From: Arcobacter venerupis
GTDB taxonomy: Bacteria; Campylobacterota; Campylobacteria; Campylobacterales; Arcobacteraceae
Assembly (NCBI RefSeq): GCF_013201665.1
Contig: NZ_CP053840.1
Location: 868,001 to 932,000 of the forward strand
Direction of reading: 5' to 3'
Length of the DNA: 64,000 nt
Shown here: in pieces, positions 5,563 through 33,655 of the stretch
Position numbering within the stretch: the first letter of the stretch is position 1
How the letters are laid out: each line of letters opens with the position of its first letter
Translations under genes and position numbers: made by a program
The notes under the pieces: model-generated
The model's database searches: none
The model's input: the letters and a program-made list of their open reading frames with translations, nothing else
Told to the model about the DNA's origin: nothing

Positions 5563-6429
5563 ATGAATCAAACTTTAAATATCAAATTTATTCTTTTTTT
5601 ACTGTTATCATTGCTTTTTTTAGCACTTAATTCAATACTTTGTAAATTTGCCTTATCAAGCAATTTTATTGATGCTTACACTTTTACGATGTTTAGACTT
5701 TTTTTTGGCTCAATCACTCTTATTCTAATATTTTTTTATAAAAGAAAAAAAATATATTTCTCAAAAAAATCAAATTGGCTTAGTTCTTTGATGCTATTTT
5801 TATATGCAATATGTTTTTCATACTCTTTTTTAAATATAGATGCAGGAGTAGGGACTTTACTTCTTTTTGCTGTTGTTCAACTTGTAATGATAATATTTTC
5901 ATTATTTCATAAAGAAAAAATAAATTTGCAAAAAATTGCTGGAATTGTTTTAGCAATGTTTGGATTGGTTTATCTTTTATATCCAAAAGAGAGTTTTGAA
6001 CTCTCTTTATTTCATGCTTTTTTAATGATTATTGCTGGAATTTCTTGGGCAGTTTATACAGTTCTTGGAAAAAAATCTTCTGATTCTTTATATAACACAA
6101 TGGATAATTTTACAAAATCTCTTATTTTTGTAGGGATATTTTATATTTTATTTCTACCTGAAAATACATTTATAACTCAAAAAGGTTTGATTTTGGCTTT
6201 TATATCTGGAAGTTTAACATCAGCAATTGGATATTTATTATGGTATGAAATATTGCCCAAAATGCAATTTATAACTGCTGGAATAATTCAATTATTTGTG
6301 CCAATTATCTCTATTATAATCAGTATTATCTTTTTAAATGAGAGCTTAACTTCAACGCTATTTTTATCAACAATGATGATATTTATGGGAATTTTACTCA
6401 CGATTTTTTCAAGAAAACTTAATAAATAA
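5563..6429 (+). CDS. EamA/DMT family transporter
   Basis: Predicted inner-membrane drug/metabolite transporter of 288 residues with about ten hydrophobic helices in two EamA halves (about 8-140 and 150-284). The second half contains SGSLTSAIGYLLWYEILPKM, typical of the family. Substrate is unknown; relatives export amino acids or metabolites. It stands alone: it is not tightly joined to the efflux operon (58-base gap) and is followed by a strong hairpin. No ribosome binding site is visible, and a -10-like hexamer is six bases before ATG. Confidence 0.88.
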   Translation: MNQTLNIKFILFLLLSLLFLALNSILCKFALSSNFIDAYTFTMFRLFFGSITLILIFFYKRKKIYFSKKSNWLSSLMLFLYAICFSYSFLNIDAGVGTLLLFAVVQLVMIIFSLFHKEKINLQKIAGIVLAMFGLVYLLYPKESFELSLFHAFLMIIAGISWAVYTVLGKKSSDSLYNTMDNFTKSLIFVGIFYILFLPENTFITQKGLILAFISGSLTSAIGYLLWYEILPKMQFITAGIIQLFVPIISIIISIIFLNESLTSTLFLSTMMIFMGILLTIFSRKLNK

Positions 6430-6430
6430 A

Positions 6431-6454
6431 AAGAGACATCAAAGGATGTCTCTT
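6431..6454 (-). terminator. Hairpin terminator between eamA and the ompA-like gene
   Basis: Perfect 10-bp stem AAGAGACATC/GATGTCTCTT with a 4-base loop. On the minus strand the stem is followed by TTTATTT, so it best fits termination of the leftward fecR-ompA transcript. It lies between convergent genes and may serve both. Confidence 0.8.
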
Positions 6455-6466
6455 AAAAAGTAGAAT

Positions 6467-7066
6467 CTATTTTAGAATAATTTCAACTCTTCTATTTTTT
6501 GCATTAGATACATTATCAGCTGTTTTAACCAATGGAGCACTATCTCCATAATATTCAACTTTAATTAGAGATTTATCAGTCATATCTTTCATTAAGATAC
6601 TAGCTACGCTTTGTGCTCTTTTAAATGATAGGGCTTTGTTATACTCTTTATCTCCTGCGCTATCACTATGTCCAATACATAGCACTTCTATAATATCATT
6701 GTCTTTAATTAGTTGATTGACATTTTTTATTTCTGCTATTTGAGTTTTATTTAACTCTGCACTATTATTAGGAAAATAAAATAAAATGCTTTGAGGTTTT
6801 TTTGGTAAAGCATTTAAAACTTCTGCATATTTTGTTTCAACAACTTTTTCTGTTTCAACTTTTTTTTCTATTTCACCTCTTTGCGAAATATTTAATGATG
6901 AATAAGCAGTATCAATATTATACTTTACACCTTTATTATCAGCGATTGAAATAACTCCTGTTTTGCCACCTTCTTCAGGTAATAATGTTATTTGAGTACC
7001 TTTTGCAGAACAACCTGAGAAAATAAAAACTCCAATTAACATACAAAATGATATTAAATATCTCAT
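6467..7066 (-). CDS. OmpA family peptidoglycan-binding lipoprotein
   Basis: Envelope lipoprotein of 199 residues. It has a lipoprotein signal (IGVFIFSGC, Cys about 19), a linker of about 70 residues, and a C-terminal OmpA-like domain (about 93-199). The domain contains FPNNSAELN, GHSDSAGDKEYNKALSFKRAQSV and NRRVEI, which carry the Asp and Arg that hold peptidoglycan diaminopimelate. It probably tethers the outer membrane or a complex to the wall. Its ATG overlaps the stop of the FecR-domain gene by 4 bases, so the two are translationally coupled and probably act together. Confidence 0.9.
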   Translation of the reverse strand: MRYLISFCMLIGVFIFSGCSAKGTQITLLPEEGGKTGVISIADNKGVKYNIDTAYSSLNISQRGEIEKKVETEKVVETKYAEVLNALPKKPQSILFYFPNNSAELNKTQIAEIKNVNQLIKDNDIIEVLCIGHSDSAGDKEYNKALSFKRAQSVASILMKDMTDKSLIKVEYYGDSAPLVKTADNVSNAKNRRVEIILK

Positions 7067-7500
7067 TCTTTAGCCTCCACTACAAAATATGTACCTCTAA
7101 TCCCAATTGATGCTGATTTAGTTTTTATTGTCATTGCTTCAGGATTTATTTTTGGTATTAGACCTGTGATACAAGCCATAGTTCCTTTTAAAAGATTACT
7201 TCCAAATTTTACTTTTTTATCTGCTGGTTCAAATAGATATTCATCAACTGAAAATTCAGAATTAGAACCAATTGAAATTAATGTATTATCTTCAAAAATA
7301 AGACCAATTGTACTATTAGTACTTGTATTAATAATATCTTTTACAAAAATCTTATCGCCAACTTTTAAGGCACTTACTTTTTTACTCTCATGAGTAACAT
7401 TAACTTCACCTTTAACGGATTTTACTAAGGCAACTGATTGTGCAGATAATAGAGTTGGTATGCTTATCAACAATATAAATAAAGCAAAAAACTTTTTCAT
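7063..7500 (-). CDS. FecR-domain periplasmic protein
   Basis: Exported protein of 145 residues with a signal peptide (about 1-20, LLISIPTLLSAQS) and a FecR domain: VKGEVNVTHESKKVSALKVGDKIF, then FEDNTLISIGSNSEFSVDEYLF, ending SIGIRGTYFVV. It has no anti-sigma transmembrane helix, so it resembles the stand-alone periplasmic FecR proteins rather than the iron-citrate regulator. SD AAGGGGAG lies just before the ATG. It is co-transcribed with the OmpA lipoprotein and sits directly behind a 40-bp palindrome (7510-7549). Exact role unknown. Confidence 0.82.
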   Translation of the reverse strand: MKKFFALFILLISIPTLLSAQSVALVKSVKGEVNVTHESKKVSALKVGDKIFVKDIINTSTNSTIGLIFEDNTLISIGSNSEFSVDEYLFEPADKKVKFGSNLLKGTMACITGLIPKINPEAMTIKTKSASIGIRGTYFVVEAKE

Positions 7501-7509
7501 AGCTCCCCT

Positions 7510-7549
7510 TTTTATTAAGTATAATTTGTTCTAATTATACTTAATAAAA
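7510..7549. promoter_or_regulatory. 40-bp perfect palindrome upstream of fecR-like gene
   Basis: Arms of 17 bp (TTTTATTAAGTATAATT and its complement) flank a 6-base spacer. Each arm holds a TATAAT box, one on each strand. The palindrome ends ten bases before the FecR gene start and just upstream of its SD. There is no T-run after it in the direction of fecR, so it looks more like a promoter/operator or mRNA-leader hairpin than a terminator. Confidence 0.6.
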
Positions 7550-7581
7550 TAAATATTTATGACATTAAGGAATAGTTATTA

Positions 7582-7800
7582 TTAATTATTCTCTTTAGGT
7601 TTTGAAGGTAAGTTTTCTATTCCTTTAAAATGATCATGCCATTTTAATTGAGAAGGTACATTTGTTGAAGTATCAGCTTTATTATTTACTTCAAAATTAA
7701 TAGCAGTTACTGGAGGTTTTTTTTCAAGATATATAAATGCAATTGTTAAAACAATAGCACTAAGAATTAGTTTGATAATAAAATATTTTAAATCTTTCAT
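7582..7800 (-). CDS. Small single-pass membrane protein, unknown function
   Basis: A 72-residue protein with one hydrophobic helix (about 9-25, IIKLILSAIVLTIAFIYL) and a polar C-terminal tail rich in Pro, Lys and Asn. I do not recognise a family. It lies between the biotin carboxylase and the FecR gene on the same strand, with an 81-base gap to fecR that contains the palindrome. The length and the clear helix support a real gene, but the SD is weak. Confidence 0.6.
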   Translation of the reverse strand: MKDLKYFIIKLILSAIVLTIAFIYLEKKPPVTAINFEVNNKADTSTNVPSQLKWHDHFKGIENLPSKPKENN

Positions 7801-7854
7801 GTAAATATTGTTACATTGTTTTAATTAAAATATCCTATATATTAAGAAGAAAGT

Positions 7855-7880
7855 TTAAGAATCTCAAAAGAGATTCTTAA
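7855..7880 (-). terminator. Terminator of the biotin carboxylase gene
   Basis: Perfect 11-bp stem TTAAGAATCTC/GAGATTCTTAA with a 4-base loop, overlapping the last codon and stop of the leftward biotin carboxylase gene. A T-rich tract follows on the minus strand. Confidence 0.8.
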
Positions 7881-9328
7881 TGTTTAACTTTGATATTATT
7901 TTTTTTGATTGTTTCCATTAGTTTCATAATCCCAGCAATCTTTTCTTCTTCTTTTTTAATATTATCTTCACTATTAAGAGTGAAGATTTCCATTTTTTTA
8001 TCTAAATAACTTGTATTAAAAGTTCCATTGATGAAATCTTCATCCCTTACAATTTCTCTATGAAGTGGAATATTTGTAGGGAATCCCTCAATATAAAATT
8101 CATCTAAAGCTCTTTTAGCTTTTTTAACTGCACCTTCCCAAGTTAATGCCCAAACAATTAGTTTTCCAATCATTGAGTCATAATTTGCAGGAACTTTATA
8201 TCCAGTATAAATACTTGTATCAAGTCTTACTCCTGGACCTCCTGGAGTTAAATATTTACTTACAGTTCCAGTTCCTGGCATGAAGTTTTTTTGTGGATTT
8301 TCAGCATTTATTCTAAATTCAATAGCATAACCTCTAAATTGAATCTCTTCTTGTAAAAATTGTAATTTATCACCCTCAGCAATTTCAATCATTCTTTGAA
8401 TAATATCAACACCTGTGATTGTTTCAGTTACTGGATGCTCAACTTGAACTCTTGTATTCATCTCAATAAAATAGATATTATCCTGAGCATCAACTAAAAA
8501 TTCAACAGTTCCTACACTTTCGTAACCTAATTTAAACATTGCTTTTGTAGCAATTCTATAAAGTTCTTTTCTTGTTTCGTTATTAAGTCTTGGACTAGGT
8601 GCAATTTCGATAACTTTTTGGTGTCTTCTTTGGATAGAACAATCTCTTTCACCTAAATGAAGAACATTTCCATATTTATCAGCGATAACTTGGATTTCGA
8701 TATGTCTTGGATTTTCAACATATTTTTCAATGAAAACTTCATCTCTTCCAAAATATTTCATTGATTCATTTGTAGCACTTTCAAACATCTCTTTAAAATC
8801 TTTTTCAGCTTTTACAATTCTCATCCCACGTCCACCACCACCAAATGCAGCTTTGATGATTACAGGAAAACCAATTTCTCTTGCAACTTTTTCACCTTCG
8901 TGAATACTAACTACTGGTTCATCAGTTCCTTCAAGTACTGGAACACCAACTTTCTTCATAGCAACTTTAGAAGCCATTTTATCACCAAAAAGTTCTATGT
9001 GTTCAGGTTTTGGTCCAATGAAAATAATTCCATTTTCTTCACATGCTCTTGCAAAATCAGCATTTTCACTTAAAAATCCATAACCTGGGTGAATAGCATC
9101 ACAATCTGCTTTTTTAGCAATTGAAATAATTCTGTCATAATCAAGATATGCTTGAATTAAATCACCCATGATTGGATAACATTCATCAGCTTTTCTAACC
9201 CAAATACCCTCAACATCAACTTCTGAAAATATAGCAACACTTCCAATTTCTAGCTCTTTACAAGCTCTAATGATTCTAAGAGCTATTTCACCTCTATTTG
9301 CAATAAGTACTTTTTTTATCTTTGCCAT
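7877..9328 (-). CDS. accC: Biotin carboxylase subunit (acetyl-CoA or pyruvate carboxylase)
   Basis: ATP-grasp enzyme that carboxylates biotin on a carrier protein using ATP and bicarbonate. It shows the glycine-rich loop KAAFGGGGRGMRIV, the bicarbonate/biotin segment ERDCSIQRRHQKVIEIAPSP, and EMNTRVQVEHPVTE of the active site. It is 483 residues, about 30 longer than E. coli AccC, with an extra charged Lys/Glu-rich C-terminal tail. No accB or transcarboxylase gene is next to it. Epsilonproteobacteria can carry both an AccC and a separate pyruvate carboxylase subunit A, and the longer tail leaves PycA open. Catalytic activity is firm; the partner is not. SD AAAGGC precedes the ATG. Confidence 0.8.
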   Translation of the reverse strand: MAKIKKVLIANRGEIALRIIRACKELEIGSVAIFSEVDVEGIWVRKADECYPIMGDLIQAYLDYDRIISIAKKADCDAIHPGYGFLSENADFARACEENGIIFIGPKPEHIELFGDKMASKVAMKKVGVPVLEGTDEPVVSIHEGEKVAREIGFPVIIKAAFGGGGRGMRIVKAEKDFKEMFESATNESMKYFGRDEVFIEKYVENPRHIEIQVIADKYGNVLHLGERDCSIQRRHQKVIEIAPSPRLNNETRKELYRIATKAMFKLGYESVGTVEFLVDAQDNIYFIEMNTRVQVEHPVTETITGVDIIQRMIEIAEGDKLQFLQEEIQFRGYAIEFRINAENPQKNFMPGTGTVSKYLTPGGPGVRLDTSIYTGYKVPANYDSMIGKLIVWALTWEGAVKKAKRALDEFYIEGFPTNIPLHREIVRDEDFINGTFNTSYLDKKMEIFTLNSEDNIKKEEEKIAGIMKLMETIKKNNIKVKH

Positions 9329-25413: not shown

Positions 25414-26064
25414 TTATTTTTGAAATTTAGCTAGTAATTTTTGAATAGTTACCGAAGCCATCATTAATCCAAATGAACCAGTTACTCCCTCGAAACTTCC
25501 CTTCTCTAGGCACATTGGTAACTCTGAAGAAAAAATTACTTTGAACTTTTTCTTGAACCCTTGAGCTTTAAGTTCAGTTCTTATTTTTTTTATAAAGGGG
25601 TCATTGTATGTGTCCCAAATAGAAATATATTCTATTTTTGATGGATCAATTCTTTTTGCTCCACCACTAGTACTAATAATCTTTGTAAAATGTTTTTTTA
25701 TTAGATGAACTTTTGGTTTAACATCATCAATTGCATCTAAAATATAATCATATGATGAAAAATCAAAATTGTCAATCCATTCGGGTGTAATTTTTAAATG
25801 AATGGGTGTAACTTCAGGATATTTTTCCTTTAAAGCTTCAACTTTTATTCTTCCAATATTTCCAATACTTCCCATTTGTCTATTTAAATTTGATTCTTCA
25901 TAAGTGTCAAAATCAACTATGGTAATATTTTTAATTCCAGTATTGTAAAGTGCATCTAAAGCAAAACTTCCAACACCACCAACACCTAAAAGTATTAGTT
26001 TAACATCTTTGAATTTTTCAAAAACATCATCACCAAATAGCTTTTTTGTTCTGTCATATTTCAT
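25414..26064 (-). CDS. ThiF/HesA family E1-like enzyme (TcdA-like)
   Basis: E1-like adenylating enzyme of 216 residues with the nucleotide-binding loop LGVGGVGSFALDAL (about 27-40), then VDFDTYEESNLNRQ with the ATP-contacting Arg. The best fit is TcdA/CsdL, which cyclises the tRNA modification t6A at A37. The sequence is about 50 residues shorter than E. coli TcdA and lacks its C-terminal extension. MoeB/ThiF is less likely because no CxxC zinc pairs are seen. No thiamine or molybdopterin genes adjoin it. Confidence 0.82.
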   Translation of the reverse strand: MKYDRTKKLFGDDVFEKFKDVKLILLGVGGVGSFALDALYNTGIKNITIVDFDTYEESNLNRQMGSIGNIGRIKVEALKEKYPEVTPIHLKITPEWIDNFDFSSYDYILDAIDDVKPKVHLIKKHFTKIISTSGGAKRIDPSKIEYISIWDTYNDPFIKKIRTELKAQGFKKKFKVIFSSELPMCLEKGSFEGVTGSFGLMMASVTIQKLLAKFQK

Positions 26065-30826: not shown

Positions 30827-31191
30827 AAAATGAAAAATTTGTAATTAAAAGTTTCTCTTTTGTCCAAACTCTGCATTTAATAGTGATTTTTAATGCTCAT
30901 GTAGTTTTAGCATACTTTACTTGCCTAGATTTTAATAAAATCTAAACTTTTATTTATAATTTTATGTGATTAAAACTAATTAAGTTTTAATAAAAATTTT
31001 TACTAAATTCACAATTATTATAATTTACACTATAATCCAGTAAATTTTTTTATGAATAAATAGTAAGTCTTTTTATAGATTAATCCAAAATTATATTAAA
31101 ATATTTATTATAAAGAAAGTAAAACTTATCAAAATAGAAGATTAACAAGGCTTATATTTTATTGTTTATTTTTTTGATATGAGGGGGAAAT
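30827..31191. other. 365-base intergenic region before the STAS/PIN module
   Basis: Very AT-rich and without a convincing ORF or RNA gene. It holds the probable uvrB terminator hairpin (30926-30944), scattered TATAAT-like boxes, and ends with the SD GAGGGGG before the GTG start at 31192. The length and base composition mark a boundary between housekeeping DNA and the module. Confidence 0.5.
30926..30944 (+). terminator. Possible uvrB terminator
   Basis: 8-bp stem TAGATTTT/AAAATCTA with a 3-base loop, about 100 bases after uvrB, followed by AACTTTTATTT. AT-only base pairs make it weak. Confidence 0.4.
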
Positions 31192-32100
31192 GTGAAAACT
31201 ATAGTTATTAATAAAATAGAGACTATCTTTGATGCAATTTTTATTTTTAACAAAATAATTTATGTTTATGATGAAGATATTATTATTGATTTTAGTGATG
31301 CTGAATTTATAAGAAATCATTTTATATCAATAATTGGAATGGGACTAGAAATAGTGAGAAAAAGAGGTGTTGATGTAGAAATTAAGAAACCAAATAATAA
31401 TAAAGTACTTAATTCAATGAAAAGAATAAATTTTTTATCATTTTTTTGTGATGAAAACAATAAGGATGATATTTATAAAACGATGGTAAAATACACAAAT
31501 ATCCCATTAGAAAATAACTCACTCATCTTACAAGAATTTTATTTATATTTTATTACTCAATTTATGGGTAAAGTTGAAAATTTATCCCCAAAACTTCAGA
31601 AAAGAATATTACAAAAGATATTTGAATTATTTTCCAATGTGTTCAGGCATAGCTATAGTGCATTAGGACTTTTTTGTTCAGGACAATTTTATCCTAATCA
31701 AGATAAGTTTAATTTCACGATTGTTGATAATGGAGTTACTATCAAGAAAAATGTGAATAAATATTTATCAAAAGAATTTACTAAAAGTAGAAGTTCCCTA
31801 GATAAACTATTGGGAAAAAAATTTGAGCCTATGGATGCAATTGATTGTATAAAGTGGGCATTAAAAGATACCAATTCTACAACTGGTGCAGGTGGTTTAG
31901 GATTAAGCCTTTTAATGGATTTAATTAAAGTTAGCAAAGGAAGTATTGAAATTATATCTGGAAATGGATATTATGGAATAAAAGATGCACGAGAATATAC
32001 TAAAGCACTTGAAAAGTCTTTTGAGGGTACAATCATAAGTATAGAACTAAATACACATAGTGGAACTTATTATTTTTTAAAGGAAGAAAAAAATGATTAA
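31192..32100 (+). CDS. STAS-like/GHKL ATPase protein (gene 1 of STAS-PIN module)
   Basis: A 302-residue soluble protein starting with GTG behind SD GAGGGGG. Residues about 1-85 look like a STAS-type domain (DIIIDFSDAEFIRNHF...GVDVEI). Residues about 135-290 form a GHKL ATP-binding domain with N-box ELFSNVFRHS (Asn149), G1 IVDNG (Asp179), G2 TGAGGLGLSLLM (232-238) and a final EGTIISIEL. There is no His phospho-acceptor domain, so it is not a sensor kinase. It resembles anti-sigma-type ATPases such as SpoIIAB. It overlaps the next gene by ATGATTAA. Its role may be to gate the PIN nuclease. Confidence 0.75.
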   Translation: MKTIVINKIETIFDAIFIFNKIIYVYDEDIIIDFSDAEFIRNHFISIIGMGLEIVRKRGVDVEIKKPNNNKVLNSMKRINFLSFFCDENNKDDIYKTMVKYTNIPLENNSLILQEFYLYFITQFMGKVENLSPKLQKRILQKIFELFSNVFRHSYSALGLFCSGQFYPNQDKFNFTIVDNGVTIKKNVNKYLSKEFTKSRSSLDKLLGKKFEPMDAIDCIKWALKDTNSTTGAGGLGLSLLMDLIKVSKGSIEIISGNGYYGIKDAREYTKALEKSFEGTIISIELNTHSGTYYFLKEEKND

Positions 32101-32440
32101 AATTAATGTTAAAGATACTATAAATAATACTATTGCAATGTCCACAGAAGATGGTAAAAGATTATTTGAAATTTTGTATGAGAATTTAAAACAATCAAAG
32201 AAGATAGAACTCTCATTTAAAGGAATTGATATGTTGATATCTCATTTTTTAAATGAATCTATTGGTAAACTTTACGAAAAATTTGATAATTGGGATATTT
32301 TAGACAAATCTATTGAATATCGAGAAATTGATGGCGATGATTTAGAGCTATTAAAAGAAAAAGTTATTCCAACTGCTAAAAATCATTTTAAGGATGTTAT
32401 AAAAACAGATTCAATAAATCAAAGTATTTTAGATGATTAA
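32093..32440 (+). CDS. STAS-like DUF4325 protein (gene 2 of STAS-PIN module)
   Basis: A 115-residue protein fitting the DUF4325 STAS-like family: MSTEDGKRLFEILYENLKQ, then the core strand KIELSFKGIDMLISHFLNESIGKLYEK, then a helical C-terminus. STAS proteins act as switch partners of GHKL ATPases; the serine in ISHFLNES may be a phospho-site, by analogy only. It is sandwiched between the ATPase and the PIN gene with the identical 8-base overlap ATGATTAA at each end, so all three are translated as one unit. Confidence 0.78.
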   Translation: MIKINVKDTINNTIAMSTEDGKRLFEILYENLKQSKKIELSFKGIDMLISHFLNESIGKLYEKFDNWDILDKSIEYREIDGDDLELLKEKVIPTAKNHFKDVIKTDSINQSILDD

Positions 32441-32957
32441 TGTATCAAATATATATAAAGTTAGTACATCAGATAAGGTTTTTGTTGATACAAATATATT
32501 AATTTTTTTATTTTCTCCCTCTTATGTTAAAAATAGCGATGACCAAGTGGAAAAATATTCAGCTGTATTTTCAAAGCTCATTGAGAATAAATGTGATTTG
32601 TATATTAATTCGCATGTTGTTTCAGAATTTATAAATCGATGCTTAAGAATAGATTTTGACAATAATTTTAATATAAATCAAGATAAAAATTACAAAAAAG
32701 ATTATCGTGCAAGTGAAGCATATTTAAAGACTATTAAAATAGTATTAAAAGAATTAAAAAAATTTCTGAGTTTTGCAAATCACATAAATGATGATTTTGA
32801 ATCATTTGATATATCTCAAGCATATAAAAGTACAAAAGAAAATGATTTTAATGACTTGATTATCGCAGATACTGTGAAAAAGAATGGTTTAAAACTTTTG
32901 AGTGATGATAAAGATTTTATGGAAATTGGTATAGATATTGATTGGTATTGTAAGTAA
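32433..32957 (+). CDS. PIN-domain nuclease (gene 3 of STAS-PIN module)
   Basis: Predicted RNase of 174 residues. The four acidic PIN positions are present: Asp19 in VFVDTNILIFLF, Glu65 in VVSEFINR, Asp141 in FNDLIIADTV, and Asp159 in LLSDDKDF, the S-x-D-x-D-F form. It is longer than typical VapC toxins (about 130-140), with an inserted helical stretch at about 75-115. No VapB-type antitoxin is next to it. The upstream partners are an ATPase and a STAS-like protein instead. It is the likely effector of the module; the target RNA is unknown. Confidence 0.85.
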   Translation: MINVSNIYKVSTSDKVFVDTNILIFLFSPSYVKNSDDQVEKYSAVFSKLIENKCDLYINSHVVSEFINRCLRIDFDNNFNINQDKNYKKDYRASEAYLKTIKIVLKELKKFLSFANHINDDFESFDISQAYKSTKENDFNDLIIADTVKKNGLKLLSDDKDFMEIGIDIDWYCK

Positions 32958-32995
32958 ATAAATTTTATTTACTTTATATTTAATAAAGGTTTAAT

Positions 32996-33001
32996 TACAA
33001 T
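32996..33001 (+). promoter_or_regulatory. -10-like box six bases before nth ATG
   Basis: TACAAT followed by six bases and then ATG at 33008. There is no SD within 12 bases; AAAGG is about 20 bases away. It fits leaderless initiation as for eamA and ispG. Confidence 0.4.
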
Positions 33002-33007
33002 TTAATT

Positions 33008-33655
33008 ATGAAAAAAGCAACAAAAGCAGATATAGAGATAATAAAACAAGCTTTCATAGAAAAGTACAGCGATGCGGTTACTGAGTTAAATTATAAAAAT
33101 GATTATGAGTTATTAATTGCCATTATTCTTTCAGCTCAATGTACAGATAAAAGAGTAAATATTATAACACCAGCACTTTTTGAAAAATATCCAAGTGTAA
33201 GAGAATTGGCAGTTGCAGATTTAGAAGATGTAAAAGCTTTGTTAAATTCTTGTTCATTTTTTAACAATAAATCAAAAAATATTATCAAAATGGCACAAAG
33301 TGTTTTGATGAATTATGAGGGAGAAATTCCCCACGACCAGCAAAAACTTATGAAACTAGCAGGTGTTGGAAATAAAACTGCAAATGTTTTTATGATTGAG
33401 TTTGAAGGTGCAAATCTTATGGCTGTTGATACTCATGTTTTTAGAGTTTCTCATAGATTGGGTTTGAGTGATGGAAAAACTGTTGATATAACAGAAGCTG
33501 ATTTGGTTAAAAAACTTAAAGGGCATGATTTACATATTTTTCATCAAGCAATGGTTTTATTTGGAAGATATATTTGTAAAGCTGTGAAACCTGAATGTGA
33601 TAACTGTTTGTTTCCACAGGTTTGCAAAACTAAACAATCTTTTAAACCTGCGTAA
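33008..33655 (+). CDS. nth: Endonuclease III
   Basis: DNA glycosylase/AP lyase that removes oxidised pyrimidines. The 215 residues show LIAIILSAQCTDKRVN, the helix-hairpin-helix LAGVGNKTANVFMIEF with catalytic Lys, VDTHVFRVSHRLGL with catalytic Asp, and the [4Fe-4S] ligands C-x6-C-x2-C-x5-C (ICKAVKPECDNCLFPQVC). The cluster links it to the Fe-S assembly genes elsewhere in the window. It lies 50 bases after the PIN gene but has its own possible start site. Confidence 0.96.
   Translation: MKKATKADIEIIKQAFIEKYSDAVTELNYKNDYELLIAIILSAQCTDKRVNIITPALFEKYPSVRELAVADLEDVKALLNSCSFFNNKSKNIIKMAQSVLMNYEGEIPHDQQKLMKLAGVGNKTANVFMIEFEGANLMAVDTHVFRVSHRLGLSDGKTVDITEADLVKKLKGHDLHIFHQAMVLFGRYICKAVKPECDNCLFPQVCKTKQSFKPA

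Follow-up and report, generated by a model that had tools for sequence, protein, structure and literature searches.

The three genes at positions 31192 to 32957 of the window (the whole 64,000-nucleotide stretch of the Arcobacter venerupis genome that was analyzed) very probably constitute a VapKSC system, an anti-phage switch that was described only recently and is now located in a further genome. VapKSC was named by Chambers et al (EMBO J, June 2026; PMC13373217) for a module of Escherichia sp. E4736 in which a STAS-GHKL kinase is combined with a STAS antitoxin and a PIN toxin, and of which the VapS–VapC complex has been solved (PDB 9Z7O). A literature search returned no paper on VapKSC besides this one. 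The defining features that can be recognized in a sequence are present in the window copy, and its biochemistry is inferred throughout from the Escherichia system. The initial annotation had called the module a candidate undescribed one, a claim that the publication overturns. Its central idea, a GHKL/STAS partner switch gating a PIN RNase, very probably holds, as it agrees both with VapKSC as published and with what the sequences show, and the anti-phage or stress role that it assigned to the switch also fits the published model.

In the published work, the toxicity of VapC was suppressed by VapS, and the suppression was abolished by the substitution S48E or by deletion of residues 94–116 (PMC13373217). 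The vapKSC operon conferred approximately 2 logs of protection against phage Bas42, which was lost with VapC D28A, VapS S48A or VapK F54A (PMC13373217). The complex, the toxicity and its suppression, the losses caused by the phosphomimic and the tail deletion, and the protection against this one phage were all reported for the Escherichia relative, to which the window proteins have low sequence similarity, detected with profiles only.

The three proteins of the module

All three reading frames are open and lie on the plus strand, the first with a GTG start, in the order kinase (K), STAS protein (S) and PIN nuclease (C) (Table 1). They are packed with two identical 8-base overlaps, ATGATTAA, exactly as had been annotated. 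These look like ordinary translational coupling and were ruled out as a special signal, since the overlap lengths differ among close relatives (14 and 8 bases in L029, 8 and 14 bases in L010). PADLOC v2.0.0 has no model that matches any of the three genes, and the Rfam and tRNA scans of the window gave no match. Promoter-like sites were not in excess in the region (24, versus 21.0 with an sd of 5.0 in shuffles); a candidate upstream of vapK is included in Table 1.

Table 1. Coordinates of the module, its functional sites and the inserted segment within the window.
Feature	Position	Strand	Basis
Inserted segment with module, 2,178 bp	30838..33015 (equivalently 30830-33007)	+	uvrB-nth empty sites; flank alignment
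Left 8-bp direct repeat ATGAAAAA, target-site-duplication-like, remnant of ancestral nth start	30830..30837	.	
Right 8-bp direct repeat ATGAAAAA, present nth start	33008..33015	.	
Candidate promoter TTCACA-17-TATAAT, upstream of vapK	31008..31036	+	11/12 consensus matches; weak evidence
vapK homologue, STAS-GHKL protein kinase, 302 aa, GTG start	31192..32100	+	Pfam, phrog_3364, AlphaFold2 model
STAS domain of VapK, residues 1-88	31192..31455	+	VIA-align: TM1442 Z 9.6, RsbS Z 8.8
F39, conserved aromatic, candidate counterpart of VapK F54 / CapK W68	31306..31308	+	equivalence inferred
GHKL kinase domain, residues 95-290	31474..32061	+	SpoIIAB Z 12.3, motif counts
vapK/vapS overlap ATGATTAA, 8 bases	32093..32100	+	
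vapS homologue, STAS (DUF4325) antitoxin, 115 aa	32093..32440	+	Pfam; 9z7o chain A profile match
Codon of S50, the predicted phospho-acceptor (VapS S48 counterpart)	32240..32242	+	9z7o alignment; column S/T 88/89; helix 50-58
VapS C-terminal tail, residues 97-115, predicted to reach VapC active site	32381..32437	+	end of model helix 81-112
vapS/vapC overlap ATGATTAA, 8 bases	32433..32440	+	
vapC homologue, PIN nuclease, 174 aa, acids D19, E65, D138, D141, D159, D161	32433..32957	+	Pfam; 9z7o chain C match

The product of the first gene matched HATPase_c below the curated Pfam cut-off (23.5 versus 26.4 bits), and phrog_3364, a phage-protein family of unknown function, fitted it over its whole length (E = 3.2e-37). 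In the AlphaFold2 model, which was based on a 30-row alignment (pLDDT 92.6, pTM 0.90), residues 1–88 form a STAS fold (aligned with TM1442 over 86 residues at 2.2 Å, Z 9.6) and residues 95–290 a kinase fold that is closest to SpoIIAB (134 aligned residues, 2.8 Å, Z 12.3). The original label of this protein, a STAS-like GHKL ATPase, is therefore correct. The GHKL nucleotide-binding residues are all present, namely the N-box E145/N149/H153, D179-x-G181 and the glycines G234, G235 and G237 of the G234-G-x-G237 motif. Among the 96 rows of aligned kinases, N149 was kept in 93 of the 94 that were ungapped at this column and E145 in 93 of 93. In the same 96 rows, 86 of the 89 kinases that are ungapped at F39 have W or F in this column, and F39 is a candidate counterpart of VapK F54, the residue assigned to ssDNA stacking. 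Approximately 18 extra residues (196–213) lie between the DxG and GxG motifs of the window kinase; they recur in L029 and L030 and partly in L031, and are absent from the other six rows of the kinase alignment (A4).

For the second protein, Pfam gave DUF4325 (58.1 bits versus a cut-off of 23) and the model a STAS fold, as the initial annotation had it. The model (pLDDT 88.4, with low confidence for residues 106–115) has helices at residues 50–58 and 81–112, the first of which is opened by S50. Its scores against STAS proteins were moderate (Z 7.6 for RsbV and 6.8 for SpoIIAA), with unrelated M17 peptidases following at nearly the same level, the first at Z 6.5. A Foldseek search with this model gave no match at E ≤ 0.001; 9Z7O was not among the matches listed and may postdate the library. 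The profile of the window family did match 9z7o chain A, the Escherichia VapS, with E = 5.6e-23. S50 aligns with residue 66 of that chain. This residue would be S48 given an 18-residue tag on the chain, which is 134 residues long; the tail deletion in the paper ends at residue 116. Serine or threonine occupied the S50 column in 88 of 89 S sequences (65 Thr, 23 Ser), and the single exception, L013, is not a VapKSC locus. The tail of the window protein, which is the predicted inhibitory region, consists of 19 residues after a conserved AK, the commonest length in the family (28 of 89).

The third protein is a PIN-domain protein according to Pfam (41.2 bits versus a cut-off of 23.6), and the profile of its window family matched 9z7o chain C, the Escherichia VapC, with E = 2.9e-15. 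D19, the aspartate of the DTN motif, aligns with VapC D28 of 9z7o. Across the 84 aligned rows, three of the acids were invariant where aligned (D19 in 78 of 78, D138 and D141 each in 82 of 82), E65 was found in 82 of 83 sequences with D in the other, and D159 and D161 were each found in 81 of 82, in keeping with the PIN RNase and the acidic residues first reported for this gene. According to the initial annotation, an ATPase lacking nucleotide binding together with an inactive PIN protein would have spoken against its reading; the outcome favours that reading, in that the former has its nucleotide-binding motifs and the active-site acids of the latter are conserved.

Insertion between uvrB and nth

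The module was described from the outset as an inserted cassette, and comparison with relatives gives strong evidence for this in the form of empty sites. In 16 of the 29 relatives that were read, including the nearest one (nth 99% identical), uvrB runs directly into nth with an aligned gap of -4 to 42 bp; in the remaining 13, uvrB was outside the 1.5 kb read around nth. On the left, the flank of the insert matches the junction of the relatives as far as ATGAAAAA, the 8 bases with which nth begins; on the right, the match starts again with this 8-base sequence, from the ATG. This exact repeat at both flanks is AT-rich and constitutes modest evidence for the mode of insertion. Within the insert, ORFs other than the three module genes are short or overlapping only. 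A search of 30 other genomes of the genus for DUF4325 genes gave no match at E 0.001, and one or two such genes were present in 4 of 59 other relatives, all 4 of them outside the genus. Based on the clean empty site, the module is a recent gain at uvrB–nth.

The GC content of the insert is 22.8%, versus 27.3% for the window. For the three genes themselves the values are 25.1, 23.0 and 23.0%, versus a mean of 27.8% for 38 long window ORFs (sd 3.2, lowest 20.8), and base composition thus adds little to the evidence for insertion.

A defence island around the window copy was considered and rejected. Among 20 further ORFs within approximately 10 kb, uvrB and nth being left out, PADLOC gave no clear or convincing defence gene. 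The single match nearby was a short one of the E1-E2 type in 25420–26064, the product of which we judge to be a ThiF-like housekeeping protein. Next to L030, gene sizes had led us to guess at a type I restriction cassette, which was discarded when Pfam identified the genes as an RND efflux set.

Distribution with and without vapC

The order K-S-C, for which conservation in other genomes had been suggested as a check, was found again on a Deinococcus gobiensis plasmid, on contigs of the viral collection and in the genome collection. A single-protein search of the genome collection with the window kinase and a first scan of the viral collection with profile A1 found none. Scanning the genome collection with the kinase profile yielded 78 loci which, judged by their titles, belong mostly to Bacteroidota and also to Spirochaetota, Planctomycetota, Proteobacteria, Campylobacterota and others. 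K, S and C occurred in this order in 68 of the 78 (64 with single matches, 4 with a split gene). The other 10 comprise L097 and L110, where the contig stops within S and within K, respectively; L094, where the contig ends 141 bases after S and no PIN start was seen; L098, where S is interrupted by a stop and the contig ends soon after; and six loci in which C is absent despite ample sequence. C reached at least 150 aa in 63 of the 78 loci, and three of the 64 (L068, L080 and L115) have a shortened or cut C. L068 and L032 are apparently the same 9,694-base contig.

Of all 98 loci scanned, 77 encode a C that is 150 aa long or longer, and S was at least 95 aa long in 77 of these 77, so that no full-length toxin was found without an antitoxin. 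K was at least 240 aa long in 74 of the 77, one of which (L031) is stopped at 245 aa; in the other 3 the kinase is in pieces. The published model receives independent support from two observations, namely that every full-length toxin found is accompanied by an antitoxin and that the phosphosite stays Ser or Thr even though the copies are very divergent. The pairwise distances of K, S and C were correlated (Mantel rho 0.72, 0.63 and 0.76, with 0 of 999 permutations as high) in 73 of 83 three-gene loci, after 10 broken, cut or duplicate loci had been dropped. This fits joint inheritance, with shared host ancestry remaining in the correlation.

Two samplings of the class to which the window belongs gave a kinase match in 16 of 397 genomes and a PIN match in 12 of 397. 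A strong kinase match (E ≤ 7.4e-49) occurred in 7 genomes, and a strong PIN match (E ≤ 2.0e-15) in the same 7; the PIN gene is interrupted by a stop in one of them and the kinase in another. Five weaker PIN matches and 10 weaker kinase places were kept out of the VapKSC count; two of the former (L035 and L036) are on short or broken pieces where neither K nor S was matched, and six of the latter are convergent pairs.

Of the six loci without vapC, four (L057, L111, L121 and L122) hold fragments or shortened kinases; L121 and L111 have genes for DNA polymerase I and ATP synthase as neighbours, and L057 follows an anti-sigma factor gene. A plausible effector was found at L061 and L071 only. In these two flavobacteria, Mesoflavibacter (L061) and Tenacibaculum (L071), K and S stand directly behind a dCTP deaminase gene, after an 18-bp gap in L061 and with a 47-bp overlap in L071. 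The deaminases have 678 and 684 aa, match the PADLOC dCTPase with E = 1.3e-114 and 2.3e-118, respectively, and have an intact HAE..PCxxC motif. The two kinases share 75% identity, and their identity to the nearest VapKSC kinases (L059 and L060) is 60%, so that by identity they fall within the VapK family. Both S proteins keep the phospho-acceptor Thr, and the conserved AK is followed by 10 (L061) and 8 (L071) residues, versus 14–24 in VapS proteins beside vapC.

Among 397 genomes of the bacterial family sampled, K and S were present within the 1.5 kb read at 2 of 8 related deaminase loci, L061 and L071 themselves, and a kinase match was present in 5 genomes, namely these two and 3 with K-S-C. 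The genus search of 116 genomes gave the kinase only as L071 itself and one K-S-C locus (L191, 30% identity), and that of 2 genomes only as L061 itself. No K-S pair stood beside the 5 plasmid deaminases read (15 records matched), and the scan of the viral collection with the deaminase found none. A literature search for a dCTP deaminase linked to a STAS-kinase switch found no such paper, an unrelated review aside, and the words deaminase and dCTP are absent from the main text of PMC13373217.

The arrangement at L061 and L071 suggests an effector swap. It is possible, though we would put it a little short of an even chance, that VapK–VapS is a portable phospho-switch that has moved to a second toxic effector, in which a STAS partner without the VapC-blocking tail would hold the nucleotide-depleting deaminase off until phosphorylation by VapK. 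A K-S pair with a short S tail and no VapC, behind an anti-phage dCTP deaminase in two flavobacteria, may be a novel finding outside the window. If confirmed, it would mean that a single damage sensor can be coupled to unrelated effectors not only through transcription but also through direct inhibition of a protein.

Proposed mechanism and relation to known systems

In the proposed mechanism, VapS would at rest bind VapC via its STAS face and lay its C-terminal helix near the VapC active site, keeping the nuclease off. Upon phage infection or DNA damage, ssDNA would accumulate and bind VapK at a site between its STAS and GHKL domains, the putative activating step. Active VapK would phosphorylate VapS on S50, the predicted acceptor, and VapS would then release VapC. 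The freed nuclease is predicted to cut cellular RNA, which would stop growth and limit the phage.

Alternatively, the genes could form a stress module that arrests growth after DNA damage, with phage protection as a by-product of ssDNA sensing, which we consider rather unlikely. It nevertheless deserves a fair hearing, the more so for a copy with the repair genes uvrB and nth on its two sides, since the response of CapK, a related system, requires UvrA and UvrB (PMC13373217). The discussion of that paper describes the line between stress and immune pathways as blurred (PMC13373217), and there is no clear defence gene nearby in the window. However, other copies are found elsewhere, L010 behind a different gene and L033 overlapping a type IIG restriction gene by 4 bases, and the uvrB neighbourhood may therefore be chance; moreover, 103 of the 289 published vapKSC instances (36%) are located within 10 kb of another immune gene (PMC13373217).

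Far less probable is an inert cassette, the decaying relic of a mobile element. The insert is AT-rich with no companion mobility gene, and broken copies exist elsewhere (an internal deletion in the L010 kinase, stops in the L032 PIN gene and the L031 kinase, and the interrupted S of L098), but the three frames in the window are intact, with every catalytic and phospho-site residue kept, and the flanking 8-bp repeat is exact. The least probable reading is that the K-S pair controls transcription in the manner of CapK–CapS, in which the same kinase and STAS domains occur (PMC13373217), and that vapC is merely a regulated downstream gene; the absence of HTH domains makes such control unlikely, as the window VapK has no Pfam HTH match and its model starts directly with the STAS fold at residue 1, the 115-aa VapS has neither a winged helix in its model nor an HTH in Pfam, and S matches the VapS of the solved VapS–VapC complex.

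The window module has the same gene order and domains as its Escherichia relative, together with the VapS phosphosite and C-terminal tail and the VapC acids; it differs in its low similarity, in the approximately 18-residue VapK segment of its clade and in the uvrB–nth site. With CapK–CapS it has in common a GHKL kinase that includes a STAS domain, and a STAS substrate in which a Ser is conserved, whereas the N-terminal HTH of CapK and the winged helix of CapS, a DNA-binding repressor (PMC13373217), were not seen in the window proteins. The SpoIIAB–SpoIIAA and RsbW–RsbV pairs resemble it in the kinase fold (Z 12.3), the N-box, the STAS fold of S (Z 6.8–7.6) and a Ser at the start of a helix. 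In contrast to these pairs, the operon neighbour in the window is a PIN nuclease gene and not a sigma factor, and the kinase has a STAS domain of its own. Finally, type II VapBC systems likewise have a PIN toxin with DTN, E and D motifs, but the window antitoxin is a DUF4325/STAS protein instead of a DNA-binding VapB, and a kinase gene joins toxin and antitoxin as a third component.

Kinase variation among VapKSC modules

Between its DxG and GxG nucleotide-binding motifs, the window VapK carries some 18 additional residues, which are placed with high confidence in the predicted structure model. The segment is common to the window, L029, L030 and, in part, L031, and is not present in the remaining six rows of the kinase alignment. 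In L010, whose VapS and VapC are intact and are 79% and 63% identical, respectively, to those of the window module, the kinase lacks the counterpart of window VapK residues 113–235. The genome that carries L010 is split into 280 contigs, so this gap is possibly an assembly fault. In L031, an additional DUF4325 gene lies immediately upstream of VapKSC, which also adjoins the gene for a large protein that matches TraG_N.

Coordinates of the features discussed (each locus in its own numbering)
Feature	Locus	Position	Strand	Remark
Extra segment, VapK residues 196–213	window	31777–31830		ATP-lid side of kinase
Close relative of window module	L010	7986–8521		internal loss in kinase
VapKSC	L031	7830–10035	-	stop codon in kinase
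VapKSC adjoining type IIG restriction-modification gene	L033	8186–12889	-	
Anti-phage-type dCTP deaminase, then VapK-like kinase and VapS-like STAS protein	L061 (Mesoflavibacter)	5919–9190		
Same arrangement	L071 (Tenacibaculum)	5966–9192		

Convergent GHKL-like and DUF4325-like genes

A second, weaker-scoring family comprises convergent genes for a GHKL-like protein and a DUF4325-like protein of ~98–102 aa (L013, identical to L178; L175; L176; L177; L179; and L180). In four of them (L175, L176, L177 and L179) the 3' ends of the two genes share 4 bases; the gap between these ends is 0 bases in L180 and 6 bases in L013. No VapC match was found beside these pairs in the stretches read. At the column of S50, the predicted phospho-acceptor of the window VapS, the L013 protein has His, with Ser on the flanks.

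Association with restriction and deaminase genes

In L033, the stop of the restriction-modification gene overlaps the start of the kinase gene by 4 bases, and hence this gene and VapKSC apparently form one transcription unit. The VapS-like proteins of both deaminase loci are short, without the tail predicted to reach the VapC active site, and vapC is absent from these loci. The arrangement possibly represents an effector swap.
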